Origin: Bacteroidia bacterium
GTDB taxonomy: Bacteria; Bacteroidota; Bacteroidia; 2-12-FULL-35-15
DNA length: 33,816 nucleotides
NCBI GenBank assembly: GCA_030654175.1
Contig: JAURXZ010000029.1
Span: forward strand, 1 to 33,816
Direction: 5' to 3'
Notes under the pieces: generated by a model
The model's input: the letters and a program-made list of their open reading frames with translations, nothing else
Told to the model about the DNA's origin: nothing
Database searches by the model: none
Position numbers and translations under genes: made by a program
Shown: piece after piece, positions 3,001 through 20,744 of the stretch
Layout of the letters: the number at the start of each line of letters is the position of its first letter
How positions within the stretch are numbered: the stretch's first letter is position 1

Positions 3001-6000
3001 GTAGCTATAGCTATCTATGGAATACATCACCAGCTCAAATTGGATCAACCGCGGTTAATTTATCTTCTGGCAGTTATACTGTAACGGTAACAGATAATAA
3101 TGGATGCGCTGTTCCTGTTTCAAAAGTAGTTACCATCACGCAACCCTCATCAGCATTTGTCGCGAGCATCTCCTCACAAACTAATGTGTTTTGTAATGGT
3201 GGTAGCACAGGCAATGCAACAGTAACAGCCACAGGAGGAAGCGGCAGTTATTCTTATTCTTGGAATACAACACCCGCCCAAACTACGGCAACAGCAACTA
3301 ATTTAACAGCAGGCAGCTACACTGTAACAGTTACAGACAATAACGGATGTACCATTCCTGTAATAAAAACAGCCATCATCACTCAACCTTTATTAATATT
3401 GGGCGCAAGTATCAGTTCACAAACTAATGTATTTTGCAATGGTGGAAGTACAGGTTCCGCAACAGTAACAGCAACCGGAGGAAGCGGCAGTTATTCTTAT
3501 TCATGGAATACAACACCATCCCAAACAACTGCGACCGCAAGTGGTTTACCTGTAGGTTCTTATACCGTAACTGTTACCGATATCAATGGATGCACTATTC
3601 CTGTGACAAAAATTGCAACCATCACACAACCTTCATCAGTACTTGGTGCCAGTATCAGCTCACAAACCAATGTGTTTTGTAATGGTGGTAATACAGGTAG
3701 TTCAACTGTTACCGCAACCGGAGGCAGCGGGAACTATTCTTACTCATGGAATACGATACCTGTGCAAACAACAGCAACCGCAAGCAGTTTACAAGCGGGA
3801 TCTTATACTGTAACTGTTACCGATAATAATGGATGTGCAATTCCAGTGACAAAAGTAGTAACCATCACTCAACCTGCGTTAGTTTTAACTGCCAATATCA
3901 GCTCACAAACCAATGTGTTTTGCAATGGTGGTAGTACAGGAAATGCAGCAGTAACAGCATCGGGTGGAAGTGGTAGTTATTCTTATTTATGGAATACCAC
4001 ACCATTACAAATTGGCGCAACAGCAATTAATTTAAATGCCGGTAGCTATACTGTAACAGTGACTGATAATAATGGTTGTACCGTGCCTGCAAGTGCAGTT
4101 GTGACTATTACACAACCGGTATTAGCCTTATCGGCAAACCTTAGCTCAAAAACTGACGTGTTTTGTTCCGGTGGAAATACTGGTGCTGCAACTGTAACAG
4201 CAACAGGTGGGAGTGGAGCCTATTCTTATTCATGGAATACAACACCTGATCAAACATCAGCAACAGCGGTTAATTTGAGTTCAGGCAGCTATACGGTAAC
4301 AATAACTGATAATAATGGATGTATACTACCTCTAATAATTGCTGTAACAATTACCGAACCTGCATCCATAATAAATGCGGGTATCACATCACAAACTAAT
4401 ATATTGTGTTTTGGTGATAGCACCGGTAGCTCAACAGTTACCGCCTCTGGAGGAAGCGGTAACTTCTCATATTCCTGGAATACCACTCCGGTGCAAACAA
4501 CAGCCACCGCTACTAATTTAACAGCAGGCAGTTATACTGTTTCAGTTACAGATAATAATGGCTGTACAATTCCGGTAACTGAAGCAGTAACTATTATTGA
4601 ACCTACATCGGCATTAAGTGTAAGTATTTCTTCACAAACCAATGTCCTTTGTTTTGAAGAAGTAACAGGTGCTGCGACAGCAACTGTTACAGGCGGCAGT
4701 GGAACTTATACCTATTTATGGAATACAGTCCCCGCACAAATTGGTGAAACAGCAATTAATTTAGGTGCTGGCAGCTATACGGTAACAGTAAATGATAATA
4801 ACGGATGTGCGGTTCCTGCCATAGCTTCACTTACAATTACACAGCCTGACTCTGTTTTAACAGTAGCAGCCACAAGTCCATTTTTTAATTTAAGTAATAT
4901 TTCATGTAATGGTGGAAGTGATGGCTCTATTAATTTAACATTAAGTGGAGGCACTATGCCTTATAGTTTTTCCTGGGAAGGGCCCGGAACCTTTGTATCT
5001 GCAGATCAAAACCTTAGTGGTCTTGAAGCAGGGCTATATTCGGTTAATGTAATTGATGCAAATGGGTGTTTAACAAGAACAACAATTACATTAATTGAAC
5101 CATCGTTAATGGCTTCAACTGTGGGTTCAACGCCTGCCGACTGCATCAAATCGAATGGTACAGCCGATCTGGATATTATTGGTGGAACTCAGCCATACAG
5201 TTGCATTTGGTCATGTGGTATTACTCAACAAAATTTAATGGGAGTTGCCGGAGGAGTTTATACAGTTAATGTGATTGACGCTAACGGCTGTTTAATTATT
5301 GATACTGTGGAAGTAGATGAAATCTCAAACCTCAGTTTAAGTTCAATTGTAAATGATGTATTGTGTTATGGTACTTCAGATGGCTCAATAAATCTAAATG
5401 TGAAAGGGACTGCGCCATTTACGTATTCCTGGTCGAATGGGAGCACCACAGAAGATCTAACCGGTGTTTCTGCCGGAGAATATATTGTAATAATAAATGA
5501 TGCGGCTGGTTGTACAATTCTTGATACGATCAGTATTACACAATCACCTCAAATTGTATTGAATTTAACGAGTCCTTTTTACTTTGATAATTTTAATGTT
5601 GCCTCATTTCAAGGTAATAATGGGGCCATTGATTTAAGTGTTAACGGAGGTCATCCTTTCTACACCTACAGCTGGTCAAATAATGCAACAACAGAAGATA
5701 TATCAAATCTTACAGAAGGAAACTACTTTGTGACGGTAACAGATTCTTTGGGTTGCCAAATTTCAGGAAGCATCATTTTAGCAGCACCATTGCCTTTGGA
5801 AATGCCAACCGGTTTTTCTCCAAATGGAGATGGCAAGAACGACAAATTTGTTATACGTGGTATTGAAGTTTACCCCAATAATCATATAACCATATTTAAT
5901 CGCTGGGGAAATATTGTTTATCAAAGTGATGGTTATCATAATCAATGGGATGGTTCTAACAACAAGGGTAATCCTTTGCCGGCCGGAACGTACTTCGTAA

Positions 6001-6062
6001 TAGTTGAAATAAATAATAAAGAAATAATATTAAAGGGATATGTGGATATAAGAAGAGAATAA
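1..6062 (+). CDS. Giant SprB-repeat adhesin with T9SS type B C-terminal domain, 5' partial
   Basis: The reading frame is open from base 3, so the N-terminus lies left of the window. Positions 3-4862 are 20 tandem 81-residue units, each exactly 243 bp. A typical unit runs TNVFCNGG, GGSGSYSYSWNT, AGSYTVTVTDNNGC, then ITQP, which matches SprB repeats. Four diverged units of the same fold follow (about 4863-5800). Positions 5805-6059 encode the gliding-motility-associated C-terminal (type B) sorting domain, recognised by PTGFSPNGDGKNDKF, FNRWGN and AGTYF. Most units keep two cysteines. In Flavobacterium, SprB-like proteins are exported by T9SS and act as mobile surface adhesins; type B cargo generally needs a PorP/SprF partner, and one lies 22 bp downstream. 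The role as an adhesin is inferred; the domain identities are clear. Confidence 0.93.
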   Translation, partial: ASITSQTNVFCNGGSAGTATVTATGGSGAYFYSWNTTPVQTTATATNLTAGSYTVTVTDNNGCTVPVTSMATITQPSSVLGASITSQTNVFCNGGSTGSATVAGSGGSGSYSYSWNTTPVQTTATAINLTAGNYTVTVTDNNGCTVPVSAVATITEPVSVLSASINQQTNVFCNGGFTGSATVNAIGGSGSYSYLWNSAPLQIGATAINLSAGSYTVTVTDNNGCTIPVTSVTTITQPVSVLSASISQLTDVFCNGCNTGSVTVTATGGSGSYSYSWNTNPVQTTATANNLAAGSYTVTVTDNNGCTIPVTVVATISEPGSVLGAFISSQTNVFCFGDNTGEATVTATGGSGSYSYSWNTIPVQTTATATNLTAGSYTVTVMDNNGSTITVTAITTITQPLSALTANISSQTNVFCRSGNTGNATVTASGGSGSYSYLWNTTPLQIGATAVNLSAGSYTVAVTDNNGCAVPVSAVATITQPVSVLGASINQQTNVFCNGGNTGEATVTATGGSGSYSYSWNTSPVQTTATANNLIAGSYTVKVTDNNGCIVPVTAVATITQPVSVLAASINQQTNVFCNGGNTGSATVLATGGSGSYSYSWNTSPAQTAATAVGLEMGTYTVTITDNNGCAVPVTKTVIITQPTSVLGGGISSQTNVFCNGGNTGSATVTATGGSGSYSYSWNTSPTQTTATAIGLTMGTYTVSVTDNNGCTVPVTKNVTITQPTGVLGAGISSQTNVFCNGGNTGSATVTATGGSGSYSYSWNTVPAQTTATASGLTSGSYNVTVTDNNGCTIPVMKVAIITQPSSILGASISSQTDVFCNGGNTGNATVTAIGGSGSYSYFWNTTPAQTSVTATGLVSGSYTVTVTDNNGCTVPVTKVVTITQPSSVLGATISSQTNVFCNGGRTGSATVTATGGSGSYSYSWNTTPIQTTATATNLSAGSYTVIVTDNNGCSIPVTKIAVITQPSSALVASITSQTNVYCNGGNTGIATVTATGGSGSYSYLWNTSPAQIGSTAVNLSSGSYTVTVTDNNGCAVPVSKVVTITQPSSAFVASISSQTNVFCNGGSTGNATVTATGGSGSYSYSWNTTPAQTTATATNLTAGSYTVTVTDNNGCTIPVIKTAIITQPLLILGASISSQTNVFCNGGSTGSATVTATGGSGSYSYSWNTTPSQTTATASGLPVGSYTVTVTDINGCTIPVTKIATITQPSSVLGASISSQTNVFCNGGNTGSSTVTATGGSGNYSYSWNTIPVQTTATASSLQAGSYTVTVTDNNGCAIPVTKVVTITQPALVLTANISSQTNVFCNGGSTGNAAVTASGGSGSYSYLWNTTPLQIGATAINLNAGSYTVTVTDNNGCTVPASAVVTITQPVLALSANLSSKTDVFCSGGNTGAATVTATGGSGAYSYSWNTTPDQTSATAVNLSSGSYTVTITDNNGCILPLIIAVTITEPASIINAGITSQTNILCFGDSTGSSTVTASGGSGNFSYSWNTTPVQTTATATNLTAGSYTVSVTDNNGCTIPVTEAVTIIEPTSALSVSISSQTNVLCFEEVTGAATATVTGGSGTYTYLWNTVPAQIGETAINLGAGSYTVTVNDNNGCAVPAIASLTITQPDSVLTVAATSPFFNLSNISCNGGSDGSINLTLSGGTMPYSFSWEGPGTFVSADQNLSGLEAGLYSVNVIDANGCLTRTTITLIEPSLMASTVGSTPADCIKSNGTADLDIIGGTQPYSCIWSCGITQQNLMGVAGGVYTVNVIDANGCLIIDTVEVDEISNLSLSSIVNDVLCYGTSDGSINLNVKGTAPFTYSWSNGSTTEDLTGVSAGEYIVIINDAAGCTILDTISITQSPQIVLNLTSPFYFDNFNVASFQGNNGAIDLSVNGGHPFYTYSWSNNATTEDISNLTEGNYFVTVTDSLGCQISGSIILAAPLPLEMPTGFSPNGDGKNDKFVIRGIEVYPNNHITIFNRWGNIVYQSDGYHNQWDGSNNKGNPLPAGTYFVIVEINNKEIILKGYVDIRRE
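3..4862 (+). repeat. 20 tandem 243-bp units coding SprB repeats
   Basis: Unit n starts at 3 + 243(n-1). The Ser codon after the first Ala is at 6-8 in unit 1 and at 4623-4625 in unit 20, exactly 19 x 243 bp apart, so the array has no net length change. Neighbouring units are highly similar at DNA level, for example units 9 and 10. Five units (3, 6, 13, 17, 20) carry a linked variant, Leu before Trp-Asn and Gln-Ile-Gly in place of Gln-Thr-Thr. Confidence 0.95.
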
Positions 6063-6084
6063 AAAGATTTTTTATAAAAGTATC

Positions 6085-7005
6085 ATGAAAAAAATTATTA
6101 CAGTTTTAGGAATTCTTGCAAGCATTATAAAGATGGATGCACAGCAAGATGTAATGGTAAGTCAGTATATGTTCAATGGGTTGTTTTTAAATCCTGCATA
6201 TGCCGGGAGCCATAAATATTTTAGTTCAACCTTGCTGCATCGGTCACAGTGGGCAGGTTTTGAGGGTGCTCCAAAAACAACTTTATTTGCGTTGGATGGG
6301 CCATTGTTTTTTCAAAAAATGGGAGTTGGATTACTATTATCACATGATAAAATTGGTGTAACAAGTCAGACTGATATGTACGCTAATTATTCCTATATGC
6401 TGAAACTTGGAGAAGGAAAACTAAGCTTTGGAATAAAAGCAGGTGCTTCAAATTATCAGGCTAAAGTGGAAGATCTGACTGTTTGGGATGAAAGCGATAA
6501 CTCTTTTTCGGGAACAAATAAAAGTGCCTGGCTTCCTAAATTCGGAGGAGGAGCTTTTTATTTCAACCATAGCTGGTACATCGGAGTTTCAATACCTGCT
6601 CTTATTGTATATGATCCGAACAAAAATTTTAACCTGTCAATGGAAAGTTCATCTTATATACGAAAGCATTATTATTTAACTTCAGGGTATGTGTTTAAAG
6701 TTAACGAAAGGGTAAAACTAAAACCATCTTTTCTTATCAAATACCAATCTGCGGCTCCTTTGCAGGCTGATATTAATTTCAGTGCTATGTATATGGATGT
6801 TGTTGCTTTAGGGATTGCATTAAGAACAAAAGATGCCGTTACAGTTATGGTTGAATATCAAGCAAATATGAGGTTTCGTATTGGCTACGCCTACGATATC
6901 ACAACTTCAAAGCTCCGGAACTATTCTTCCGGTTCGCACGAAATAATGATTGGATTCGATTTCGGAAAAGACATTATAAAAGTAAAAACACCACGTTTCT
7001 TTTAA
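6085..7005 (+). CDS. PorP/SprF family type IX secretion membrane protein
   Basis: A 306-residue protein with a signal peptide (cleavage likely after MDAQ, about residue 20) followed by the family's start of mature sequence: DVMVSQYMFNGLFLNPAYAGS, then SSTLLHRSQWAGFEGAP. The rest alternates short aromatic beta strands, as expected of an outer-membrane barrel. PorP/SprF proteins are the outer-membrane partners of type B sorted T9SS cargo. It begins 22 bp after the SprB-repeat gene and ends 18 bp before the PorE-like gene, so the three are almost certainly cotranscribed, and this copy is probably dedicated to the adjacent adhesin. Length fits the family (about 300 residues). Confidence 0.93.
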   Translation: MKKIITVLGILASIIKMDAQQDVMVSQYMFNGLFLNPAYAGSHKYFSSTLLHRSQWAGFEGAPKTTLFALDGPLFFQKMGVGLLLSHDKIGVTSQTDMYANYSYMLKLGEGKLSFGIKAGASNYQAKVEDLTVWDESDNSFSGTNKSAWLPKFGGGAFYFNHSWYIGVSIPALIVYDPNKNFNLSMESSSYIRKHYYLTSGYVFKVNERVKLKPSFLIKYQSAAPLQADINFSAMYMDVVALGIALRTKDAVTVMVEYQANMRFRIGYAYDITTSKLRNYSSGSHEIMIGFDFGKDIIKVKTPRFF

Positions 7006-7023
7006 TTTTAAAAAACAGAGATA

Positions 7024-9186
7024 ATGAAAAAATATTTTTTAAACTCAGTAGTTATTTTTAGCAGTATTTTTTTTACGGGCTGTACGAATTATTTTTATAA
7101 AAAAGCAAATACAGAATTTGCCAATTTACAATTTTCGGAGGCAATAAAAGATTATAATAAAGTTCTTTCAAAAGAAGATAATCACGATGCGAAAATTAAA
7201 CTCGCCAACAGTTACAGGTTAATAAATGAGTTAGAAAAGGCGAGACCATTATATGCTGAAATAGTGAACTATCCTGAAAGTAAGCCGATAAATATTTTTC
7301 ATTATGCGAAAGTATTAAAATGCTTAGGTGATTATACGAATGCAAAAATATGGTATAAAAATTATCTTGACCGTGTCCCCGATGATGCAATTGCACAAAT
7401 TTCATTTGCAACTTGTAATTTAGTTAATCCATTTATCAGGGATACAACTTTATTTTCGTTGAACTTAATAAACTTTCCTTGTCTTGAATCTGCATTTGCC
7501 CCGGTGCCATATAAAGGCGGGGTTATATTTACTGCAAATAAAAAAGCCTCTATTAATTCAAAAAAGGATCCATGGACAGGCAAGACATATTATGATCTGT
7601 ATTTTGCAGAAAAAGATAAAAATGGAAATTGGTTAAGTCCGCAAATAATTAAAGGAGAAATTAATGGACGTTACCATGAAGGACCGGCAACCTTTAATAA
7701 GAAAAGTAATGTAGCTTATTTTACCAGAAGCAATTATTTTAAAAACAGCCTTGGAAAAAGCAGTAAGAATGAAAATAATCTGAAATTATTTAAAGCTAAA
7801 TTGGTAAATAATAAATGGGAGCAATTAGAGGGAATGCCATTTAATAGTGACGAATATTCTGTAGGTCATCCTTGTTTATCGAAGGATGAAAAAACAATTT
7901 ATTTTATTTCTGATATGCCTGGTGGCTTAGGGGGTACTGATATTTACAAATCAGTTTATGAAGGTAAAAAATGGAAAAAACCAGAAAATTTAGGTAACGA
8001 AATTAATACATCAGGAAATGAAATGTTTCCATTTATCAGTGATGATGGTACATTATATTTTTCTTCTGATTCTCATGAAAATATGGGTGGATTGGATGTT
8101 TTTTCAACTTCGTATGATGAAAAAAATAAAAAATGGCATCCGATCGAAAACCTCAACTATCCTTTAAATTCTACCAAGGACGATTTTGCCTTTATATTAA
8201 ATAAAGATAATAAAACGGGTTTTATTTCTTCGAACAGGAGCAGCCCTGACGAAATTTATGAATTTGAAAAACATGATCCTACTTTCAATTTGTTTGGAAA
8301 GTTTACAATAAAGGGTAAGAATATGCCACTCGAAGATGCGACTGTAACAATAACAGATAGAACAAATAGTTCAATAATCACAACAATACAAACCGATAAA
8401 GATGGAATGTATAAAATAAAACTTAAAACTGAAACTGACTATGAAGTTTATGGATCGAAACAAAATAATGTTACTGAAAGTTCGGAAATATCAACAAAAG
8501 GGAAAAAATATTCTGAGAACATTGAAAAAAATTTTGAATTAGATCATAATGCGATTAATTTAAATGTATTTGGAATTGTCACTGTAAAAGGCGAAGGAAC
8601 TCCTTTCAAAGATGCTATTATAACAATTGAAGGAAATAACTCTAAAAAAATCATTATTCAAACTGATAAAAATGGTAAGTATAAATCAATAATCCAACCC
8701 GAAATTGATTATGAAGTTTATGGATCGAAAGATGACTATTTTACAGAGTGCTCAGAATTCACAACTAAGGGAATAAATAATTCGAAAGAATTTGAAAAGA
8801 ACTTTGAATTGGAAAAAATTGTGATTCTGAAACCAATTGTTTTGGAGCATGTATTTTATGACCTTGCAAAATGGGCAATTCGTCCGGACGCTGAAATTGA
8901 ATTAAATAAATTGGTGAAATTATTAAAGATCAACCCAACTATTTCAATTGAAATAGGTTCCCACACTGACTCTCGAGCAGGGGATAGCTATAATATGATC
9001 CTTTCAGATAAACGTGCCAAATCTGTGGTTGATTATTTAGTTTCAAAAGGGGTAAAATCAAGCCGATTAACCTGGAAAGGCTATGGTGAAACCCAATTAA
9101 TAAACAAATGCAAAAATGGTGTAGAATGTCCCGAATTGGTACATCAGCAAAATCGAAGGACTGAATTTAAGGTACTAAAAAAATAA
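7024..9186 (+). CDS. PorE-like lipoprotein: TPR, WD40-like propeller, two regulatory domains, OmpA C-terminal domain
   Basis: A 720-residue protein. The lipobox FTGC puts the lipidated cysteine at residue 20. In order: TPR-type helices (about 30-135); PD40/WD40-like blades (about 155-420, with IYFISDMPGGLGGTDIY and LYFSSDSHENMGGLDVF); two carboxypeptidase-regulatory-like domains (about 425-513 and 515-603); and an OmpA-type peptidoglycan-binding domain (about 610-720). The expected diaminopimelate-binding pair is present, D649 in GSHTDSR and R664 in LSDKRA. This is the architecture of T9SS PorE, except that the regulatory domain is doubled. It probably ties the upstream PorP/adhesin assembly to the cell wall. 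It could be a paralogue dedicated to this module and not the core PorE. Confidence 0.88.
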   Translation: MKKYFLNSVVIFSSIFFTGCTNYFYKKANTEFANLQFSEAIKDYNKVLSKEDNHDAKIKLANSYRLINELEKARPLYAEIVNYPESKPINIFHYAKVLKCLGDYTNAKIWYKNYLDRVPDDAIAQISFATCNLVNPFIRDTTLFSLNLINFPCLESAFAPVPYKGGVIFTANKKASINSKKDPWTGKTYYDLYFAEKDKNGNWLSPQIIKGEINGRYHEGPATFNKKSNVAYFTRSNYFKNSLGKSSKNENNLKLFKAKLVNNKWEQLEGMPFNSDEYSVGHPCLSKDEKTIYFISDMPGGLGGTDIYKSVYEGKKWKKPENLGNEINTSGNEMFPFISDDGTLYFSSDSHENMGGLDVFSTSYDEKNKKWHPIENLNYPLNSTKDDFAFILNKDNKTGFISSNRSSPDEIYEFEKHDPTFNLFGKFTIKGKNMPLEDATVTITDRTNSSIITTIQTDKDGMYKIKLKTETDYEVYGSKQNNVTESSEISTKGKKYSENIEKNFELDHNAINLNVFGIVTVKGEGTPFKDAIITIEGNNSKKIIIQTDKNGKYKSIIQPEIDYEVYGSKDDYFTECSEFTTKGINNSKEFEKNFELEKIVILKPIVLEHVFYDLAKWAIRPDAEIELNKLVKLLKINPTISIEIGSHTDSRAGDSYNMILSDKRAKSVVDYLVSKGVKSSRLTWKGYGETQLINKCKNGVECPELVHQQNRRTEFKVLKK
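8290..8830 (+). repeat. Tandem duplication of regulatory-like domain inside the PorE-like gene
   Basis: Two consecutive domains of about 90 residues share the pattern FGxxTxKGxxxPxxDAxxTI, DKxGxYK, DYEVYGSK, KNFEL. A 21-bp stretch is identical at 8440-8460 and 8710-8730, 270 bp (90 codons) apart, which indicates a fairly recent internal duplication. PorE of the known type has one such domain. Confidence 0.8.
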
Positions 9187-9296: not shown

Positions 9297-9304
9297 TACC
9301 TTTG
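9297..9304 (+). promoter_or_regulatory. Bacteroidota -7 element TACCTTTG
   Basis: Exact match to TAnnTTTG, the primary sigma -7 consensus of this phylum. It ends only 9 bases before the ATG at 9314, so the transcript would be leaderless or nearly so. A convincing -33 element is not seen. Confidence 0.6.
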
Positions 9305-9313
9305 TAAAATACA

Positions 9314-9628
9314 ATGTGCAAAGGAATTAAAAAATATATCTCGTTTGTTTTACTTTTTCTCTTTCTATTCCCTCTGATTGAGAAAGAGTTTCATAGTTTT
9401 GAGTGCGATACAGATGTTCACTGTACTGCCAGCGAAATGCACTTTCATAACTTAGAGCACCATTGCGGCATTTGTGATTTTACTATTTCTGATTCCAATG
9501 CTCCTGCTAACGCGGATTATCCCCTAATTAATTCTGTTCACTTGTTTTTGTTTCAACATTTTAATGAAAGCGTTCACATTAACACTGCTTTCCAACACCT
9601 TCCTTCACGAGCCCCTCCATTAGTTTAG
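9314..9628 (+). CDS. Small exported His/Cys-rich protein, putative metal binding
   Basis: A 104-residue protein with an N-terminal hydrophobic segment (about residues 8-22), then a mature part dense in metal ligands: Cys31, Cys37, Cys51, Cys54 and His27, His36, His43, His45, His49, His50. The core reads HFHNLEHHCGICDF and the C-terminus ends LPSRAPPLV. Small proteins with an H-C-x-I-C-x-F core next to TonB-dependent receptors are familiar in Bacteroidota genomes, but I know of no proven function. It lies 92 bp upstream of a TonB receptor on the same strand. Periplasmic metal capture or sensing (copper or zinc) is an inference from ligand content and neighbour. The start is supported by the -7 element just upstream. 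Confidence 0.75.
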   Translation: MCKGIKKYISFVLLFLFLFPLIEKEFHSFECDTDVHCTASEMHFHNLEHHCGICDFTISDSNAPANADYPLINSVHLFLFQHFNESVHINTAFQHLPSRAPPLV

Positions 9629-9720
9629 TTTTTTCTTTTATTTTCTATGTCAAATAATGTTCTGAAAGCTAAAACTTTTATGGACTTTTTTGTAATTATT
9701 TAATCAAAAAAAACACTATC

Positions 9721-12195
9721 GTGGAAAAAAAGCAGTATTCGTTTTTTGCAATTATCATATTTTGTGCAAATATGGTTTTAGCATCTCCTTATCCGGAACA
9801 AAAAACATCTCTTACAGGCAATATCAAAGATAAACAAACAGGAGAGGCCCTGCCCGGGGTTACCATTTATATCCCTGATCTAAAAACAGGCGCTGTTTCA
9901 ACTATTGATGGAACGTATAAGATCGAAAATTTGCCGTCAACAAAAATACTTGTTCAGGTAAGTTTTTTAGGATACAAAACTATTATTGAAATGATTGATC
10001 TGTCATCAACAGCATCAAAAGATTTTGTGATGGAAATTTCAATAAAAGAAATAAATGAAGTTGTAGTTACAGGTACATCAAAAGCAACAGAAATAAGGAA
10101 AAGTCCGATCCCAATAGTCGCAATTGATAAAAATCACATCGATCAAAATTTGAATACAAATGTAATTGATGTAATTGCACAACTACCCGGTGTCAGTACT
10201 GTTACTACAGGACCAAATGTGTCAAAACCCTTCATTCGCGGGTTGGGATATAACCGCGTGCTTACCTTGTTTGATGGAGTGCGGCAGGAAGGGCAGCAAT
10301 GGGGCGATGAGCATGGGGTTGAAGTGGATGAATTCTCTGTTGACAGGATAGAGGTGGTGAAAGGGCCTGCCAGTTTAATATATGGTTCAGATGCCTTGGC
10401 TGGAGTTGTTAATTTAATGCCTGCACCGCCAGTTCTTGATGGTATACTTAAAGGAAGCATTTTATCTAATTACCAAACTAATAATGGATTGATAGGTAAT
10501 TCTTTTGCATTGGCCGGAAACAATAACGGATTTGTTTGGGGCGGACGTATTTCGAATAAAATTGCCGGAAATTATCAAAATAAACAGGACGGCCGTGTAT
10601 ATGGTACTTCCTTCAAAGAAACAGATGGCAATGGGTACATTGGGTTAAACAAGCATTGGGGATATTCGCATCTTAAATTTTCTGTTTTCGATGATCTCCA
10701 AAGTATTCCCGATGGAAGCCGGGATTCAACCACACGGAGATTTACGAAACAAATAACAGAAGCAGATTCTGTTCGCCCAATTGTATCTGAAGAGGAATTA
10801 AATTCTTATACTATTCCATTGGTACATCAGCATATTCAGCATTATAAAATTATTTCAACAAGTAATTTTATTATAAATAATAGTAAATTAGGTTTGAATT
10901 TAGGATACCAACAAAATATCCGTAGGGAATTTACGCATCCGCAAAGAGCTGATATTGCAGGTTTGTATCTTATCCTTAATTCATATACCTATGATATAAA
11001 ATATCATTTACCCGAAAAAAATGGTTGGGAAGCAACCATAGGAATTAATGGCATGTACCAGGATAATTCAAATAAAGGGACGGAATTTATCATTCCTGAT
11101 TATACTCTTTTTGATATTGGCCCTTTTGCATTCATAAAAAAATCTTTCAGTAAATTGGATTTAAGTATTGGGCTTCGTTATGATAGTCGTTCTTTTAAGA
11201 ATGAAGAAATGTACATCACACAAAATTCAGAAACCGGTTTTGATATGCAAACCTATATACCTGATACTGTTGGTGCAAGCCATCCGTTTTTAGAATACAT
11301 TCATACTTTTTCAGGATACTCCGGAAGCATTGGAGCAACTTACAGTTTGTCGGATAATTTTTTTATAAAAGCAAATATTGCCAGGGGATATAGAGCACCA
11401 AACATATCCGAAATTTCGTCTAACGGAGTTCATCCCGGAATAAATATTTATCAAATAGGAAACCCGGATTTCAAATCAGAATTAAGTTTACAAGAAGACC
11501 TGGGCCTGTTTTTTTCATCACAACATTTAACGTGCGAATTGGATTTTTTTAATAACAACATTTCAAATTACATTTATAATGAAAAGGTACTAAATGATAA
11601 AGGGCAGGATTCTATTGTTGTTCCCGGAAATCAAACGTTTCAATATCAGGCCGCAATGGCCCAATTGTATGGAGCTGAAGCAAGTATCGACATTCATCCA
11701 CATCCCTTAGATTGGCTGCATTTCGAAAATTCAATCTCAATATTATCTTCGCTTAACAAAGGCGTAAAAGGAATTCCAATTACAGATAGTGCAAAATATT
11801 TACCTTTTATTCCTCCAATGCATACACATACTGAGTTACGTGCAGACATTAAGAAAAAATTCCGGCATTTTTCTTCAGTTTATGTTAAACTGGAAATGGA
11901 ATATTTTGCAAAACAAAACAAAGCTTATTTGGCTTTTAATACCGAAACTGTTACGCCAAGCTATACATTGTTTAATGCAGGTATTGGAGTTGATGTAACG
12001 AACAGATCGGGCAAAGTCCTTTTTAGTTTTCATATGTTAGGAAACAATATTGCCGATGTAACTTATCAAGCGCATTTGAGCAGGTTAAAATATTTTGAAA
12101 ATTATCCCAATAATGGAAGTGGAACTAGTGGAATTTATAATATGGGAAGGAATCTCAGTTTTAAATTGCTCGTACCGATGAATTTTAAAAAATAA
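9721..12195 (+). CDS. TonB-dependent outer-membrane receptor, probable metal uptake
   Basis: An 824-residue protein starting at GTG; the N-terminus is a signal peptide ending around VLASP. A carboxypeptidase-regulatory-like domain (about 29-115; TGEALPGVTIYI, TIDGTYKIENLP) precedes the plug (about 120-235) and the 22-stranded barrel. The plug carries LTLFDGVRQEGQQWGDEHG (181-199) and RIEVVKGPASLIYGSDALAG. A plug with Asp-Glu-His-Gly at this place resembles the zinc/copper receptor group (ZnuD-like) more than siderophore or SusC receptors; this is a judgement from sequence. Histidine clusters IHPHPLDWLHFE and MHTHTEL occur in the barrel part. The His/Cys-rich gene upstream supports metal as substrate. 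There is no SusD partner, so polysaccharide uptake is unlikely. Confidence 0.88.
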   Translation: MEKKQYSFFAIIIFCANMVLASPYPEQKTSLTGNIKDKQTGEALPGVTIYIPDLKTGAVSTIDGTYKIENLPSTKILVQVSFLGYKTIIEMIDLSSTASKDFVMEISIKEINEVVVTGTSKATEIRKSPIPIVAIDKNHIDQNLNTNVIDVIAQLPGVSTVTTGPNVSKPFIRGLGYNRVLTLFDGVRQEGQQWGDEHGVEVDEFSVDRIEVVKGPASLIYGSDALAGVVNLMPAPPVLDGILKGSILSNYQTNNGLIGNSFALAGNNNGFVWGGRISNKIAGNYQNKQDGRVYGTSFKETDGNGYIGLNKHWGYSHLKFSVFDDLQSIPDGSRDSTTRRFTKQITEADSVRPIVSEEELNSYTIPLVHQHIQHYKIISTSNFIINNSKLGLNLGYQQNIRREFTHPQRADIAGLYLILNSYTYDIKYHLPEKNGWEATIGINGMYQDNSNKGTEFIIPDYTLFDIGPFAFIKKSFSKLDLSIGLRYDSRSFKNEEMYITQNSETGFDMQTYIPDTVGASHPFLEYIHTFSGYSGSIGATYSLSDNFFIKANIARGYRAPNISEISSNGVHPGINIYQIGNPDFKSELSLQEDLGLFFSSQHLTCELDFFNNNISNYIYNEKVLNDKGQDSIVVPGNQTFQYQAAMAQLYGAEASIDIHPHPLDWLHFENSISILSSLNKGVKGIPITDSAKYLPFIPPMHTHTELRADIKKKFRHFSSVYVKLEMEYFAKQNKAYLAFNTETVTPSYTLFNAGIGVDVTNRSGKVLFSFHMLGNNIADVTYQAHLSRLKYFENYPNNGSGTSGIYNMGRNLSFKLLVPMNFKK

Positions 12196-12417: not shown

Positions 12418-13785
12418 TTAATTTTTTTTTCTTCCTCGCCTTGAGCGGTACATATACCGTGCTAATACAACAGCAAGTATAAAAACACAAGCTCCAAGGA
12501 TTAATTCAAGTTGTTTCTTTTTTTTATTGGCTTCTGCAATTATATCCTTCTTTTCCGCTTCAGCAGCTTCATTTTTCTCAAAGTCATAATTAATTAAATC
12601 TTGTGTCGATTTGCTTTGAATTGCTTCCCTGTCAATACTATCTCTATAAAGACCATAAAGTTTATGATGATGATAAGCCGCTTTCCAGTTGCCTTCAATA
12701 CTATCCAATTCTTCCAAAAGGCTATAACTTTCTTTGATCCATTCTTTACTGCCGAGATCAATACTTAAATTCAATGCTTTGTTTAAATAATCCTGTGCTT
12801 CTTTTAATTTCCTTAAATCCAATAGAACATGGCCCATACCTATAAAGGATTCTATTGTGCCTTGTTTATCTCCGGTCGCTTCTCTGATTTTTAATGCTTC
12901 GTGGTAATTATTAAATGACCTGTTCAATAAATCCTTTTGGTCAATAGGTTTTGCTTTATTCGCAGATTTCCCTGTTTGGTTAAGTTCAGGATAATATACT
13001 TGATTCCAATAAATATTTCCAAGGTTATTATATGAAAATGCGGTACCATATTGGTTTCCAATTTCTTTATTGATCATCAATGAAGCAGAATACATTTTTA
13101 GTGCCTCTGAATAATTTCCCTGGCTATTATAGATACGTCCAATATTATTGTAAGAGGCAGCAATACCTTTTTTGTCGTCAATTTTTGAAAATATTTTTAA
13201 GGCAGTGAAGTAGTTCTTTAATGCTTCAGGATAATTGTCAGGATCATCATAAACAAGTCCGATGTTGGTGTAAGAATTTGCTATACCTTCATTATCACCT
13301 ATTTGTTCTCTTAAATTTAAAGAAGCATAATAATTTTTTAATGCTTCTGTATAATTGTTTTGATAATAGTAAATAATACCAATGTTGAGATAGGAGCCTG
13401 CAATGTCTTTCTTGTTTTTCAGCACTTCATTGATCTTTAATGAAGCGATGTAATTTTTTAATGCAAGAGAATAATTACCATTACTGTAATAAATATTTCC
13501 AATATTATTGTAAGCGGAGGCTTTATATTTTTCTGTTACAATGGGGTTTGTCAGTGTCAATGCTTCATTTCCATATTTCAAGCCATTATTATAGTCTCCG
13601 ATATTTCTGTATTCCTCACACAAGGATATTAAATGATTAACCTTGCTGGTATCGGATCGGTCCGCTTTAATAAGCGTTAATAAAGAATCTATTTGTCGGT
13701 TTTGGGCAAATGAAGATAGTCCACTGTGATCAACAAAAGAGAGTAAAAAAAATAAGACAAGTTGTGAAAGATTTTTTATTTTCAT
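12418..13785 (-). CDS. Exported TPR protein with C-terminal membrane anchor, phosphatase-less paralogue
   Basis: A 455-residue protein. Signal peptide (about 1-27), TPR repeats with a regular 40-residue step (about 50-350), a short charged segment, and one membrane helix (about 427-445) followed by RSRRGRKKN and the stop. It is clearly related to the larger gene upstream: AQNRQIDSLLTLIKADRSD here against AQNRNIDSLLTLLKTDKPD there, and the shared EGNWKAAYxHHKL before the helix. It ends just after the helix, where the paralogue continues into coiled coil and SpoIIE phosphatase. One spacer, NQVYYPELNQTGKSANKAK, interrupts the TPR rhythm at about 261-279. It lies 85 bp downstream of the phosphatase gene. 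Function is unknown; competition for the same input or dimer partner is possible. Confidence 0.85.
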   Translation of the reverse strand: MKIKNLSQLVLFFLLSFVDHSGLSSFAQNRQIDSLLTLIKADRSDTSKVNHLISLCEEYRNIGDYNNGLKYGNEALTLTNPIVTEKYKASAYNNIGNIYYSNGNYSLALKNYIASLKINEVLKNKKDIAGSYLNIGIIYYYQNNYTEALKNYYASLNLREQIGDNEGIANSYTNIGLVYDDPDNYPEALKNYFTALKIFSKIDDKKGIAASYNNIGRIYNSQGNYSEALKMYSASLMINKEIGNQYGTAFSYNNLGNIYWNQVYYPELNQTGKSANKAKPIDQKDLLNRSFNNYHEALKIREATGDKQGTIESFIGMGHVLLDLRKLKEAQDYLNKALNLSIDLGSKEWIKESYSLLEELDSIEGNWKAAYHHHKLYGLYRDSIDREAIQSKSTQDLINYDFEKNEAAEAEKKDIIAEANKKKKQLELILGACVFILAVVLARYMYRSRRGRKKN

Positions 13786-13809
13786 TATAAATTCTTCATG
13801 AAGATTAAA

Positions 13810-13817
13810 TAAATATA
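13810..13817 (-). promoter_or_regulatory. Possible -7 element TATATTTA for the short TPR gene
   Basis: On the minus strand TATATTTA (seven of eight positions allowed by TAnnTTTG) lies 24 bases before the ATG at 13785. It would let the short paralogue be transcribed separately from the phosphatase gene. Such matches are frequent in AT-rich DNA. Confidence 0.3.
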
Positions 13818-13870
13818 GAAATTAAAATTCAGCTCTCCTTCAAAAAATTGATTTAATAAATTAAGAATAA

Positions 13871-16117
13871 CTATATCCTAATTCCAATAATTGTAACATC
13901 ATCCACCTGTTCTAAATTTCCTTTCCATAAGCTGAATTCATCAGAAAGTCTTTCTTTTTGCTCCTTCATTGGCAAATGGCTAATACTAATAAGCAATTCT
14001 TTTAATTGTTTCGACATAAACTTTTTACCTTTCGGACCTCCAAACTGGTCAGGCATACCATCCGTTATAACATAAACGATGTCGCCTTTTTCTAATTCTA
14101 TTGTGTGTTGAGTAAAAGGAATTGAATCTTGAGTATGTTTTCCAACAGGCATTTTATCTGGTTCCAGTTCAATGATTTGTTTTTTTCTAACGATCCAAAT
14201 AGGATTGTTTGCGGCTGAAAAAGTTAACTTTCCTCCAGGGGCTTCTCCAATTGAAGAGTTGATATTAAAATCAAAACTGATCAAGCTGCAATCCATTCCA
14301 TCTTTTCCGCCTTCAGCACTTCCGTCATTTGATAAATGTTCGATTATTTTACTGCGGGTATAATTTAATATTTCATTTGGCTCTGTTAATTGTTGCCCTT
14401 TTACAGCTTCGTTTAAACACGAAATATTGAGCATACTCATAATAGCCCCGGGCACTCCATGTCCTGTACTATCTGCGGTTACCAATGCAAAATTGCCATT
14501 TGCCAATGGAGCTGCCCAATAAAAATCTCCACTTACAATATCTTTAGGTTGAAAAAAAATAAAGTAATCTCTGTCGTGATGTATATCCCTTAACAACTTT
14601 TTAGATTCCGATACAAGCCCGGAGTTACCTTTAAATAGATATGCATCCAACATTTTATCGCTTGCCAACAAAGCGCGTTGTATCCTTTGAGCATAGTTGA
14701 TACTATCAGTAATCTCCTTATTTTTTTCTAAAACCATTTCCTTTTGGTGAGAAACTTCATTTTTTTGAAGTTCAATTATTCTCTTTTGTTTACGGGTTAT
14801 TCGAAGGGAGCGGACTACAAATCCTGCAAAAATAAAAACAAGGATCAAAACAATAGATACAAGGATCAAGATCAGTTCCTGCCTTTTTTTATTAGCTGAG
14901 GTTATCGTATCCTTTTTATCCTGTTCTGCTTTTGAGGCTGCTTCTTGTTTCTCAAACTTATTAGTTAATATGATCTCAGTGGTTTTTTTCTTCGTTTCTT
15001 TATTGTCAATACTATCTTTGTAAATAATAAATAGTTTGTGATGCTGATAGGCAGCTTTCCAGTTACCTTCAGTGCTGTCTAATTGAGACAAGCTGTAGTA
15101 GTTAGTTTTAATCCTTTCTATATTTCCAATTTCAGAATTTATTTGCAATGCATCGTTTAAACAATTTCGGGCTTCTTTTAATTTTTTTAATCTTTTGTAC
15201 ACATCGCTAATATTCATAAACGAGGTTGCTATACCACGCTTATCTCCAATATTTTGCCTTATTTTTAATGAAATGAAGTAATTTTTCAATGCCTCAGGAT
15301 ATTTACCTTGATTAAAATAAATAGCTCCGATATTATTGTGTGAAGTTGCAATTCCTTGTTTATGGTCAGTTTCTGTAAATATATTTAATGAGGCGAAGTA
15401 GTTTTTTAATGCTTCCAAAAAATTGCCTTGTGATTGATAAATAATTCCAATGTTGTTATAAGAAAAAGCAATGCCCTTTTTATCTCCAATTTCTTTTAAT
15501 ATCTTTAAGGAAGCGAAGTGGTTTTTTAATGCCTCAGGATTATTTGATTGTGTGTGATAAATAAACCCGATGTTGTTATAAGAATCAGCAATCCCTTGTT
15601 TATCCCCAATTTTTTCCTTTATTTTTAATGACTCAAAGTTGTTTTTTAATGCTTCTGCATAGTTGCCTTGATTAAAATATATAGCTCCGATGTTATTGTA
15701 TGAAGTTGCCACACTCTGTTTATCGCCAATGGCAATCCTTAACTTTAAGGAAGCAAGGTGATTTTCTAGAGCTCCATGATAATTTCCTTGGTCGGAATAA
15801 ATATTTCCAATATAGTTGTAAGCTAAAGCTATGCCTTTAGCCCATCCAATTTTATTGTCAACTGTAAGGCAGCGGGCTAATGCTAGAGCTTTATTTCCAT
15901 ATTTTATGCTATTAACATGTTCTCCAATATCGATATATTCCCGACATAATTTGTTTAAGTGATTTACTTTGTTGGTATCCGGTTTATCTGTTTTGAGTAG
16001 GGTTAGAAGAGAATCAATATTTCGATTTTGAGCAACGGAAACTCCGCTAAAACCTTTAAAGATGAGGACCGATAAAAATAAGGTAAAGGTTAAAAAATAT
16101 TTTATTTTCATTTTCAA
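13871..16117 (-). CDS. TPR sensor with membrane helix and SpoIIE-type PP2C serine phosphatase domain
   Basis: A 748-residue protein. Signal peptide to about residue 29; TPR repeats with a strict 40-residue period from about 95 to 340 (GDKQGIADSYNNIGxIY, EALKNxFxSLKI); membrane helix about 413-436; coiled coil about 437-480 ending DSINYAQRIQRALL; SpoIIE/PP2C domain about 505-748. Metal-binding aspartates are in place: D531 (SGDFYW), D549 (TADSTGHGVPGA), D609 (DGMDCS), D686 (ITDGMPDQ), D739/D740 (VDDVTIIG), so it should be active. The TPR part would be periplasmic and the phosphatase cytoplasmic. Such proteins dephosphorylate anti-anti-sigma-like partners in partner-switching systems; no kinase or STAS protein is seen here. 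A divergent promoter-like site lies at 16169-16176. Confidence 0.92.
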   Translation of the reverse strand: MKMKIKYFLTFTLFLSVLIFKGFSGVSVAQNRNIDSLLTLLKTDKPDTNKVNHLNKLCREYIDIGEHVNSIKYGNKALALARCLTVDNKIGWAKGIALAYNYIGNIYSDQGNYHGALENHLASLKLRIAIGDKQSVATSYNNIGAIYFNQGNYAEALKNNFESLKIKEKIGDKQGIADSYNNIGFIYHTQSNNPEALKNHFASLKILKEIGDKKGIAFSYNNIGIIYQSQGNFLEALKNYFASLNIFTETDHKQGIATSHNNIGAIYFNQGKYPEALKNYFISLKIRQNIGDKRGIATSFMNISDVYKRLKKLKEARNCLNDALQINSEIGNIERIKTNYYSLSQLDSTEGNWKAAYQHHKLFIIYKDSIDNKETKKKTTEIILTNKFEKQEAASKAEQDKKDTITSANKKRQELILILVSIVLILVFIFAGFVVRSLRITRKQKRIIELQKNEVSHQKEMVLEKNKEITDSINYAQRIQRALLASDKMLDAYLFKGNSGLVSESKKLLRDIHHDRDYFIFFQPKDIVSGDFYWAAPLANGNFALVTADSTGHGVPGAIMSMLNISCLNEAVKGQQLTEPNEILNYTRSKIIEHLSNDGSAEGGKDGMDCSLISFDFNINSSIGEAPGGKLTFSAANNPIWIVRKKQIIELEPDKMPVGKHTQDSIPFTQHTIELEKGDIVYVITDGMPDQFGGPKGKKFMSKQLKELLISISHLPMKEQKERLSDEFSLWKGNLEQVDDVTIIGIRI

Positions 16118-16245: not shown

Positions 16246-16635
16246 ATGCGATTTTTTTTTAAATTTTATAAAATAACACTTATCAGTATTTCTGTTTTTT
16301 CAGTATTTGCTTTCAGTTCATGTTACAAGGAAGGCAGCGGAGGGAAGTCGGGCGTTAATGGAAATGTTTCTCACCACGGCCATTTGGTGGCTAATGCTAT
16401 TGTTTATATTAAATATGATGCTGTTGAATTTCCCGGGGCTGATGTATCAAAATACAATGCCTCTGTTACTGCTGATGCCAATGGGCATTATGAATTTAAG
16501 GATCTGCGAAAAGGTGTGTATTACCTATACGCGGTTGGATATGATAATTCAATTATGGAGACGGTAACCGGTGGTACCGGAATAAAACTTAAATACAATA
16601 AAGCAACAAGTTCGGATATTCCGGTATTGGAATAA
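16246..16635 (+). CDS. Small lipoprotein with carboxypeptidase-regulatory-like domain
   Basis: A 129-residue protein. The signal peptide ends in AFSSC, so Cys26 is the lipidated residue. The mature part is a single beta-sandwich of the carboxypeptidase-regulatory/SdrD-B type: GVNGNVSHHGHLVANAIVYI, then TADANGHYEFKDLRKGVYYL and a final strand. It stops 15 bp before the cytochrome/propeller lipoprotein, and the two are likely one operon under the -7-like element at 16222. A binding or scaffolding role next to the redox lipoprotein is a guess. The domain is common, so function cannot be named. Confidence 0.82.
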   Translation: MRFFFKFYKITLISISVFSVFAFSSCYKEGSGGKSGVNGNVSHHGHLVANAIVYIKYDAVEFPGADVSKYNASVTADANGHYEFKDLRKGVYYLYAVGYDNSIMETVTGGTGIKLKYNKATSSDIPVLE

Positions 16636-16650
16636 TAGAATATCATTTCT

Positions 16651-18105
16651 ATGAAAAAACGACTTTACAATTCCTTTGTTATTGGTTCATTTGTGATAAT
16701 TACCTTAAATAGTTGCACCAATGATAAAGGTATCCCCGATTACAATAATTACCCCGATGATATAGGAAAACTTTTTTTTACAAAATGCTCAACACCCGGT
16801 TGCCATACAGATGCCAGCAAGGATGCAGCTGCTGGCTTATCAATGGAAAGTTGGGATAAGTTATTTAATGGGGGGAAAGGAAGTGCCGCAGTTATACCCT
16901 TTCGACATGATTACAGTACCTTGTTTTCATTCACCAACACATTTTCTGATGTGGGTATATCAAATCTACCAACTATGCCCTTCAATAGGACTAATTTATC
17001 CCGTGAGGAGGTTCTGCTATTAAAAAACTGGATAAATGCAGGTGCTCCCAGCCGGGATGGATTTGTTAAATTTTCGGATGATCCAAACCGTAAAAAAATT
17101 TATATCAGCAATCAGGGCTGTGATGTGGTAACCGTCATGGATCAGGAAACTTTATTACCAATGCGCTATATTGATGTAGGAAATACCGGAGGTATCGAAT
17201 CCCCTCATATGATAAAAGTATCTGCTGACGGCCAGTATTGGTACATTGTTTCCATATCAGGAAATTCTTTGCAAAAGTACCGGACCACCGATGATAGTTT
17301 TGTTGGAGAAGCATTTTTAAGTATAAAGAACTGGAACACACTAACCATTAGCAATGACGGGCAAAAAGCTTATGTTATTGATTGGAGTAGCAATGGCGAT
17401 ATTGCTGAAGTGGATCTCACTACTTTTGCAGTAACACATAATATGGGTTATAATTTTCCTCATGGTTCTTGCCTTAATCCTGCCGGGGATACCTTATATG
17501 TAACCCAACAAAACAGCAGCAATAAGTTATATAAAATGCCGGCCAATGATTTATCAGCATTTACGGAAGTAAATTTGTTTACCATACAACCCACGGGTTT
17601 TCTAAATGCACATGAGGTGTTTTTTTCTCCTGATGGAACAAAATATTTTGTTACCTGCCAAGGGACTTCAGAGGTGAGGATTTTCCAACAAGGTACTGAT
17701 CAGTTGCTTGCTATAATTCCTGTTGGCGCATTACCATCTGAAATGAGTGCATCCATGCTTCACAATTATTTATTTGTTTCCTGTCCCGAGGATATCACTT
17801 CCTTCCCCGGTAAAAGAGGCGCCATATGGGTAATTGATATCAATACTAATTCTTTGATAAGCACTATTTACACAGGTCACCAACCGCATGGCTTGGCAGT
17901 TGACGATACTAAAAATCTGGTGTATGTTGCTAACCGAAATGCAACTACTGACGGTCCGGCACCCCATCATTCAGGAGCATGTGGTGGACGGAACGGATAT
18001 GTCTCATTTATTGATATGAGTACTTTAACTCTTTTAAGATCAGGAACAAGCGATAAAAAAGTGGAAGTATCGGTTGATCCTTATTCTGTGGCTGTAAGAC
18101 CGTAA
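16651..18105 (+). CDS. Lipoprotein with cytochrome c-like domain and YVTN beta-propeller
   Basis: A 484-residue protein. The lipobox LNSC puts the lipid on Cys22. Residues about 38-135 form a cytochrome c-like domain: C46-STPG-C51-H52 is a heme motif with four spacer residues (CX4CH) in place of the usual two; Met109 in LPTMPFN is a plausible distal ligand, and LSREEVLLLKNWINAGAP is the usual closing helix. Residues about 145-484 are propeller blades of YVTN type (IYISNQGCDVVTVMDQET, LAVDDTKNLVYVANRN, YVSFIDMSTLTLLRSG). Similar cytochrome-plus-propeller proteins occur in Bacteroidota and Planctomycetes. It may be an outer-surface or periplasmic electron-transfer or substrate-binding protein; the substrate is unknown. 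Cotranscription with the preceding small lipoprotein is likely. Confidence 0.85.
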   Translation: MKKRLYNSFVIGSFVIITLNSCTNDKGIPDYNNYPDDIGKLFFTKCSTPGCHTDASKDAAAGLSMESWDKLFNGGKGSAAVIPFRHDYSTLFSFTNTFSDVGISNLPTMPFNRTNLSREEVLLLKNWINAGAPSRDGFVKFSDDPNRKKIYISNQGCDVVTVMDQETLLPMRYIDVGNTGGIESPHMIKVSADGQYWYIVSISGNSLQKYRTTDDSFVGEAFLSIKNWNTLTISNDGQKAYVIDWSSNGDIAEVDLTTFAVTHNMGYNFPHGSCLNPAGDTLYVTQQNSSNKLYKMPANDLSAFTEVNLFTIQPTGFLNAHEVFFSPDGTKYFVTCQGTSEVRIFQQGTDQLLAIIPVGALPSEMSASMLHNYLFVSCPEDITSFPGKRGAIWVIDINTNSLISTIYTGHQPHGLAVDDTKNLVYVANRNATTDGPAPHHSGACGGRNGYVSFIDMSTLTLLRSGTSDKKVEVSVDPYSVAVRP

Positions 18106-18192: not shown

Positions 18193-18350
18193 ATCAGCAC
18201 ATTAATAAATCAGCACATCAGCACATCAATTTATATTTTTAAATTGGTTGATCAGCACATTAATAAATTAGCCCATCAGCACATCAATTTATATTCTTTA
18301 ATTGGTTGATCAGCACATTAATAAATCAGCACATCAGCACATCAATAAAT
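18193..18350. repeat. 58-bp tandem repeat, three copies (last partial)
   Basis: Copies start at 18193, 18251 and 18309, exactly 58 bp apart; the third is cut short at about 18350. The core is ATCAGCACATTAATAAATCA followed by CACATCAGCACATCAA. Within each copy the short word CAGCACAT recurs. The 16-mer TTGATGTGCTGATGTG at 18129-18144 is the perfect reverse complement of 18214-18229, so the spacer could form a large hairpin. Confidence 0.9.
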
Positions 18351-18359
18351 TTTATTTTC

Positions 18360-18367
18360 TATCTTTG
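18360..18367 (+). promoter_or_regulatory. -7 element TATCTTTG for bioB
   Basis: Exact TAnnTTTG match 24 bases before the ATG at 18392. It decides the bioB start, since the longer frame from 18302 would begin upstream of the promoter inside the tandem repeat. Confidence 0.65.
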
Positions 18368-18391
18368 TATTTCAATCGTAAAAAAACATTT

Positions 18392-19409: not shown

Positions 19410-19435
19410 GATTCGTAATTTGATAAAATTAGTTT

Positions 19436-20578: not shown

Positions 20579-20744
20579 TTTCGGATACGTCTTACTACTC
20601 TAAAATAGTTTAATTTCGATATACCCTTATAAAACAGGTACGATTTTTTATCGAAAATTTAATATCCCGCATTACAAAATTTTGCTCGGTAATATCAATG
20701 TATCAAGTGGTTGTGGTTTGTAAATATTAAAAAGCTATACAAAT

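Follow-up and report, generated by a model that had tools for sequence, protein, structure and literature searches.

A candidate metal-responsive arrest peptide encoded ahead of ZnuD-like receptor genes in Bacteroidota

What does a small His/Cys-rich protein do when its gene lies directly ahead of a TonB-dependent receptor gene? The question is raised by contig JAURXZ010000029.1 of a Bacteroidia bacterium (GCA_030654175.1), of which we analysed positions 1 to 33,816, the whole 33,816-nucleotide (nt) stretch that we call the window. An earlier note on this DNA had correctly pointed to the gene pair, a small gene at 9314-9628 followed by a receptor gene starting with GTG at 9721, and had read the small protein as a periplasmic metallochaperone or sensor. 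We consider the small gene to be, quite probably, an upstream open reading frame (uORF) for a cis-acting, self-stalling peptide of the CruR/CutF type, which would sense a metal (likely zinc) during its own synthesis and leave the receptor on when that metal is scarce. The locus combines a C-terminal motif, a fixed motif spacing, an operon-leading position, a near-leaderless promoter box, and complementarity between stop and start regions; judged by these sequence features, a metal-responsive arrest-peptide uORF is well supported, and zinc as the metal and an RNA stem as the mechanism are likely.

The upstream reading frame, its conserved motifs and its promoter

The uORF, its parts, and the receptor gene are as follows.

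9297 to 9304, plus strand: TACCTTTG, a match to the Bacteroidota -7 box TAnnTTTG, 9 nt from the uORF ATG (sequence)
9314 to 9628, plus strand: uORF encoding a 104-amino-acid (aa) His/Cys-rich exported-type arrest-peptide candidate (sequence, profile family)
9317 to 9406, plus strand: predicted N-terminal hydrophobic export/anchor helix, residues 2-31 (AlphaFold2 and conserved consensus)
9419 to 9475, plus strand: putative metal-sensing motif H36-C37...H43-F-H45...E48-H49-H50-C51-G-I-C54 (conservation)
9608 to 9619, plus strand: R99-A100-P101-P102, putative arrest motif two residues ahead of the stop codon at 9626-9628 (motif conservation)
9721 to 12195, plus strand: TonB-dependent receptor of 824 aa, ZnuD-like (Pfam TonB_dep_Rec_b-barrel, Plug, and CarbopepD_reg_2)

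With the window protein as query, homologues were found in 41 of the 99 genomes searched as relatives (its own included). A profile search found the family in 30 of 36 genomes of the genus and in at least 27 of 395 genomes across the phylum, again counting its own; the latter is a lower bound because at most 12 candidates were scored per genome. In named genomes, a scan found 34 loci, every one from a Bacteroidota metagenome-assembled genome. Distinctness was judged by the last 80 residues, which reduced 118 open reading frames (ORFs) to 89 homologues (loci L180-L207 excluded), and those scoring 75 or more form the core set.

The C-terminal motif is RAPP in 61 of these homologues, RGPP in 25, and KAPP in one; of the two without it, one is truncated by a contig end and the other (L136) is a weak match. 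In 84 of the 87 proteins with the motif, 1-5 residues separate it from the stop. The distance from CxxC to the Arg of the motif is 42-45 residues in all 81 homologues with both motifs (44 in 55 of them, 42 in three; where several CxxC were present, the one nearest a spacing of 45 was chosen), and it is 44 in the window, counted from C51-C54. The collected loci contain 496 further distinct ORFs with a length of 200 aa or greater, and R(A/G)PP occurs in none of them. Eleven related receptors had no uORF found by the profile, yet six of them (L103, L104, L107, L109, L110, and L111) have an adjacent upstream ORF ending in RAPP or RGPP, as do two loci with weak profile matches (L106 and L113), which gives 8 of 13 examined and none in the other five. 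CxxC is present in four of the six extra ORFs that were measured, each time 43 residues from the Arg. Seven of the 26 other TonB receptors of the window genome were examined, and none has an upstream ORF ending in R(A/G)PP.

The window uORF product (MCKGIKKYISFVLLFLFLFPLIEKEFHSFECDTDVHCTASEMHFHNLEHHCGICDFTIS...LPSRAPPLV) is a 104-residue, exported-type, His/Cys-rich protein, as the earlier note had described it, with five rather than four Cys: C2, within the export segment, C31, C37, C51, and C54. In 23 aligned members, H27, C37, H43, C51, and C54 are invariant and H31, H36, H45, E48, and H49 are kept in at least 90%; a comparison of 28 members has H36, C37, H43, H45, E48, H49, C51, and C54 invariant. 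Since C31 replaces a His found at that position in at least 90% of the 23 members, the conserved set comprises three Cys and about six His. The 23-member consensus runs from LKKYxSxFxLFLFLFPxVEK through H27, H31, D34, H36-C37, K-H43-F-H45, and E48-H49-x-C51-x-x-C54-D-F to a variable stretch and (L/S)-R-A/G-P-P. AlphaFold2 predicted a hydrophobic helix at residues 2-31, after Lys residues, as the sole structural element (mean predicted local distance difference test score 63.1).

The Pfam family DUF2946 matches 12 of the 23 members at E ≤ 1 (best E 0.0017) and none of 59 relatives at E ≤ 0.001; a DUF2946 search of pMOL30 and a tblastn search of plasmids gave no match. A search of the PDB with the uORF product returned a single chance-level match, and a Pfam match to Nodulin_late (E 0.00058, 20.6 bits with a cut-off of 30.4) was set aside as a Cys/signal-peptide artefact.

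The -7 element lies 9 bases from the ATG, exactly as had been noted. In the Bacteroidota transcription map of Flavobacterium psychrophilum the -7 box spans -12 to -5 (PMC9723704), which puts the predicted +1 near 9309 and the leader at about 5 nt; the uORF mRNA is thus predicted to be near-leaderless, in keeping with most of the earlier proposal, and not strictly leaderless. As reported in these sources, leaderless transcripts make up 5.5% of mapped mRNAs in F. psychrophilum (PMC9723704), 5' untranslated regions under 10 nt about 3.7% in B. thetaiotaomicron (PMC7366714), and Bacteroidota are without Shine-Dalgarno sites (PMC9723704, PMC7366714). Among the 53 core homologues, 43 have a TAnnTTTG that ends 0-12 nt 5' of the start, as do 53 of all 88; of 538 other genes, 13 have the box at this spacing when the first ATG is considered and 19 when any of the first three is, so that the predicted near-leaderless promoter is specific to the family. 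Of 85 gaps between a uORF and the gene behind it, only 3 contain a further TAnnTTTG, and one promoter therefore probably serves both genes. A scan with the sigma-70 consensus gave three sites (2.8 in shuffles, hence chance level), and the only terminator-like site is on the opposite strand.

Other small proteins with similar ends occur near the collected loci. Small Cys-rich proteins at L063:4802-5215, L065:3025-3480, and L071:11441-11680 end in or near HPPR or HAPP and are possibly further arrest-type metal sensors. At L068:7462-10892, L080:7239-11517, and L084:4183-8127, two small RAPP/RGPP proteins flank one receptor; the second of them overlaps the receptor 3' end in L080 and L084, and in L084 there are 41 residues between its RAPP and the stop.

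Complementarity between the uORF stop and the next start

The uORF stop-codon region is complementary to the 32 nt ahead of the next start, as judged by an alignment-free swap test with 5,000 permutations. In the core set (n = 50, arm from -12 to +12), own pairs averaged -7.47 kcal/mol versus -4.91 for swapped pairs (z -8.07, p at the permutation floor). Sliding the arm gave z values of -4.29 (-24 to 0), -5.51 (-6 to 18), -1.70 (-30 to -6), and 0.60 (0 to 24), so that the signal is lost at the last of these positions and almost lost at the one before. A distant set (n = 23) gave z -4.28 and is the less biased test, because the stem was first spotted by eye among up to 40 of the highest-scoring members and single folds were picked. 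Unbroken helices of at least nine pairs occur in 15 of 73 family members versus 4.9% of 123 control pairs, and a stop/start stem is part of the minimum-free-energy (MFE) structure in 36 of 67 family gaps versus 40 of 142 control gaps (Fisher p 0.0006). These tests exclude near-duplicates (85 reduced to 83) and gaps under 56 nt for the swap test or outside 56-200 nt for the MFE test.

Eight single folds were hand-picked, mostly for good stems, and six of these (L069, L076, L094, L042, L075, and L092) close the gap with a stem at z -2.5 to -4.9. The window RNA (9605-9724) folds at -19.4 kcal/mol (z -2.50), with 2 of 200 shuffles as good. Its stop-region arm pairs 37-57 nt before the start, whereas in many relatives the partner lies directly before the start. 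The RNA features of the window are listed here.

9606 to 9633, plus strand: predicted 5' stem arms, the Arg codon region (9606-9610) and the stop-codon region (9616-9633) (RNA fold)
9664 to 9723, plus strand: predicted 3' stem arms, 9664-9684 (pairing with the stop-codon region) and 9719-9723 including the GTG (pairing with the Arg codon region) (RNA fold)
9464 to 9661, plus strand: C-rich, G-poor stretch (78-nt windows with C 22-29% and G 9-15%), a possible Rho-loading region (weak, from composition)

Because the stop region covaries with the region before the next start, a stalled ribosome could open the receptor start site, and we propose the following sequence of events. Transcription would begin a few bases 5' of the uORF ATG, and with the ORF at the very 5' end of the mRNA the lead ribosome would trail RNA polymerase closely. 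The nascent chain would expose HC...HFH..EHxCxxC, and the ribosome would tend to arrest at RAPP, with two codons left ahead of the stop. Under metal scarcity the ribosome would remain stalled there; with Pro101 and Pro102 in its P and A sites it would cover stem bases around the stop codon, and this RNA could then not pair with the region before the receptor start, so that the start would stay open and the importer be made. Metal, most likely zinc, would bind the nascent motif, and folding or a pull from the membrane would relieve the arrest; the ribosome would leave, the stem would close the start site, and receptor synthesis would stop, to which Rho termination may add. The arrest itself, the identity of the metal, and the direction of the response are what we infer here. 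A precedent for release by folding is a zinc finger whose Zn2+-dependent folding lifts the arrest of SecM in vitro (PMC4571824); its tether in that work is 20-30 residues, compared with the longer 44 of the window uORF, and CruR works with 45.

Partner genes, the metal, and competing explanations

All 87 homologues with at least 350 nt of downstream sequence are followed by a same-strand gene of at least 90 aa within 460 nt, at a median distance of 91 nt to its first ATG (shorter genes, and two loci with a contig end within 350 nt, were left out of this count). A TonB receptor is the next gene in 63 of the 87, and in 70 one is reached by the fourth gene downstream without a change of strand: a strong link to metal-type receptors, as the earlier note had supposed. 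The remaining next genes encode a 380-aa protein (six loci), a CobW-type GTPase (three), and lipoproteins or other proteins (15). The 380-aa protein is followed by a ZnuA-like gene in five of its six loci (L069, L071, L087, L092, and L102) and by an ABC-3 permease in four; the remaining contigs end. Neighbours were identified by Pfam scans of representatives of recurrent clusters and otherwise named by BLAST cluster; Pfam itself confirms ZnuA in L071, ABC-3 in L071 and L102, and cobW in L093. The L093 GTPase scores 539 bits to ZigA (NF038288, cut-off 600), with L125 and L127 joined to it by BLAST cluster only, and the L071 binding protein is nearest to AztC and ZnuA, far under their cut-offs. 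From strand, gap, and promoter box, the uORF appears to be the first gene of an operon with metal-related genes.

In a tree of the 48 core uORFs that stand directly ahead of a gene for a receptor, the 380-aa protein, or CobW, the ZnuA-heading uORFs are scattered among receptor-heading ones. L069 and L071 stand beside the receptor-heading L064, L072, L075, and L076, L087 beside L091 (67% identity), and L102 beside L095 (51%). Many deep forks are weak; at least three partner changes are forced by well supported branches, and five is the minimum on the tree as drawn. As the partner types are interspersed, both partners probably answer the same signal, and the candidate sensor is of one kind, swapped repeatedly between partners.

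The receptors point in a similar direction. A profile of the window receptor class (16 sequences) has ZnuD as its best PDB match (4rdr, E 6.2e-32), and so does a divergent receptor class that also follows uORFs (six sequences, E 2.5e-29). The Asp-Glu-His-Gly in the plug, noticed previously, is D196-E197-H198-G199 (10306-10317); with ZnuD numbering that rests on a counted offset of 14, E197-H198 (10309-10314) and H571 (11431-11433) align with ZnuD D99/H100 and H499, and H100, E340, and H499 are among the ligands of one ZnuD site (PMC4557270). The window receptor scores 84 bits to ZnuD (NF038289, cut-off 950), 40 to the TonB-copper family, and 164 to a haem receptor family, all below cut-off. 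The ZnuD match alone is no proof of zinc, as ZnuD has motifs in common with haem receptors (PMC4557270) and the haem-family score is higher.

In L170, L171, L177, L179, and other loci, an approximately 200-aa lipoprotein and an outer-membrane barrel repeatedly follow the divergent receptor class. The lipoprotein has an HHQPNVKNGSC tail in two printed members and its representative has no Pfam match; the barrel has weak Pfam matches.

The ZnuA-type and ZigA-like partners, together with ZnuD as the best PDB match, make zinc likelier than copper, and given an arrest peptide of this class we lean towards zinc as the metal sensed. That the same peptide reads copper or another metal is unlikely, though it has points in its favour: CruR and CutF respond to copper (PMC9426467, PMC9973294), and MbnP and CCP_MauG genes follow the receptor in L064 and L072. 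This version has to contend with related uORFs, in two cases with 64-67% identity to receptor-heading ones, that head ZnuA-type operons, with three more that head a ZigA-like gene, and with a window receptor closer to ZnuD than to the TonB-copper family. Somewhat less probable still is a CruR-style arrest in which the stalled ribosome keeps Rho from terminating transcription between the two genes and the stem is minor. It has the CruR precedent (PMC9426467) and a C-over-G bubble in the uORF 3' half, where the C-minus-G fraction of the last 165 nt is +0.121 in the window, a value that 0.2% of 577 other genes attain, and averages +0.089 in the family versus -0.029; most of this excess is accounted for by the encoded protein (with synonymous codons as the reference, z averages 0.70 and exceeds 0 in 72% of 87), and the covarying stop/start complementarity is unneeded for Rho.

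Two readings do without a metal-relieved arrest, and both seem to us improbable. A small periplasmic metallochaperone or soluble sensor passing metal to or from the receptor, as first proposed, would suit an exported-type, His/Cys-rich protein encoded directly before a TonB receptor in most loci. It leaves unexplained why R(A/G)PP and the CxxC distance are kept across otherwise variable sequence, why the gene comes first before unrelated partners, and why the stop and start regions covary; moreover, the low-confidence model has no fold past the N-terminal helix. The folded metallochaperone is thus given up as the main reading, whereas the label of sensor is apt for a cis-acting peptide read during synthesis. 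The least probable alternative, ordinary translational coupling through the stem with neither arrest nor metal sensing, would account for a covarying stop/start complementarity that can enclose the gap, and would leave both the fixed CxxC spacing and the presence of RAPP and RGPP, the variants most readily giving robust arrest (PMC12992588), without a reason.

Several results weigh against the zinc-sensing arrest peptide that we prefer. In the 115 control gene pairs, too, own partners do slightly better than swapped ones (z -2.48), for which base composition may be the reason, and the MFE stem is enriched rather than universal. The window itself scores 0 in the MFE test, as the partner of its start codon is the Arg codon region, and L059, the nearest relative when receptors are compared, has a fold no more stable than that of shuffled sequence (z -0.78). 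RNAalifold predicted no pairs on a MAFFT alignment of 20 gap regions; MAFFT probably does not align the arms, and we therefore relied on the swap test. The window uORF product is under the DUF2946 gathering cut-off (residues 37-102, 16.9 versus 23.7 bits), and CxxC is absent from 6 of the 87 homologues with the C-terminal motif. On the side of the metal, the ZnuA family (PF01297) was not found at E ≤ 0.001 in the 5.1-Mb assembly of the window genome, and is present at that threshold in 11 of 14 control genomes; the ZnuA-like and ZigA-like partners score under the NCBIfam equivalog cut-offs. L064 and L072 have a copper signature, since their receptor genes are followed by MbnP and, as judged by cluster, by a di-haem peroxidase (Pfam matches MbnP in L072 and CCP_MauG in L064, and both clusters occur in both loci), and these copper-type loci are close kin of the ZnuA-heading L069 and L071 (64-65% identity).

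The fullest version of the zinc-sensing arrest peptide is tentative, and we give it a little less than an even chance: a zinc-responsive, near-leaderless Bacteroidota uORF whose release lets a stem shut ZnuD-like, ZnuA-type, or ZigA starts, as a cassette swapped repeatedly between zinc-uptake routes. If true, bacteria would have a post-transcriptional zinc sensor, and a zinc-reading arrest peptide would fill, for zinc, the gap pointed out by Roy et al. Bacteroidota would gain a switch that acts on translation through an RNA stem open to testing, and an uncharacterised gene family ahead of metal receptors would be accounted for. Among the matches listed in our literature search, no report links arrest peptides, RAPP, or uORFs to zinc.

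Elsewhere in the window, a small lipoprotein-like gene and a beta-propeller gene (weak PSCyt1 match) at 16246-18105 resemble genes at L085:10526-12515 that stand directly 3' of the receptor there. In the window this pair is separated from the receptor by two TPR genes on the minus strand (12418-16117), one of them carrying SpoIIE, an order that, compared with L085, suggests a split ancestral cluster. A 1981-aa SprB-repeat protein with a type IX secretion sorting domain, PorP/SprF, and an OmpA/TPR protein form a type IX secretion adhesin cluster at 117-9186. BioB, a BioF-like protein, and a class-III aminotransferase are encoded at 18302-23601, interspersed with a CheB methylesterase gene and a glyoxalase-type gene.

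Comparison with known systems

The earlier note had regarded such a protein as not characterised, which holds for the Bacteroidota gene family and not for the class, since CruR, CutF, and RAPP arrest peptides are characterised in other phyla. The closest counterpart is CruR of Bordetella pertussis, a DUF2946 uORF before the TonB-dependent transporter gene bfrG/crtA, in which CxxC is followed by 45 residues, RAPP, and three more residues (PMC9426467). The same source reports that the CxxC-RAPP spacing stays within one or two residues in more than 2,000 DUF2946 proteins, that the downstream TonB receptor gene was no longer expressed once RAPP had been mutated, and that mutation of CxxC did strong damage to control by copper (PMC9426467). 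In vitro evidence that CruR arrests at RAPP came later, in work that ranks RAPP and RGPP as the RAPP-like sequences most readily giving robust arrest and describes such motifs as excluded from proteomes (PMC12992588).

Like CruR, the window uORF is small, with a predicted export-type N-terminus and CxxC, and probably leads an operon with a TonB receptor; the spacing is 44 versus 45 residues, and RAPP lies two versus three residues from the C-terminus. It differs in scoring under the DUF2946 cut-off, in its near-leaderless start, in coming from Bacteroidota, in its gap of 92 versus 162 nt, in its covarying stop/start complementarity, and in belonging to a family with some partners that point to zinc. 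The HC...HFH..EHxCxxC motif is conserved in the window family; CruR was compared by its published description.

The window receptor resembles Neisseria ZnuD (4rdr; PMC4557270) in keeping the acidic-His pair of the plug and the H499 position, and is unlike it in its NCBIfam score (84 bits versus a 950-bit cut-off) and in having a CarbopepD_reg_2 domain. The uORF shares with the TonB-related RAPP/RGPP arrest class (PMC12992588) a small, probably secretory product, the C-terminal RAPP or RGPP, and the place upstream of TonB receptors; that paper covers the TonB class in general, and zinc occurs nowhere in its main text, nor in the main text on CutF (PMC9973294). CutF-like proteins in Bacteroidota and TonB-like neighbours have been reported (PMC9973294). 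CutF of Rhodobacter capsulatus is an exported nascent metal sensor with a Pro-rich C-terminus and a stem-loop that hides the start site of the gene behind it (PMC9973294); the window uORF product also has a Pro-rich C-terminus, and for it export, metal sensing, and a stem-loop of this kind are predicted or proposed. Unlike the window uORF, which we expect to repress when metal is present, CutF has CxxxC and raises expression with copper.

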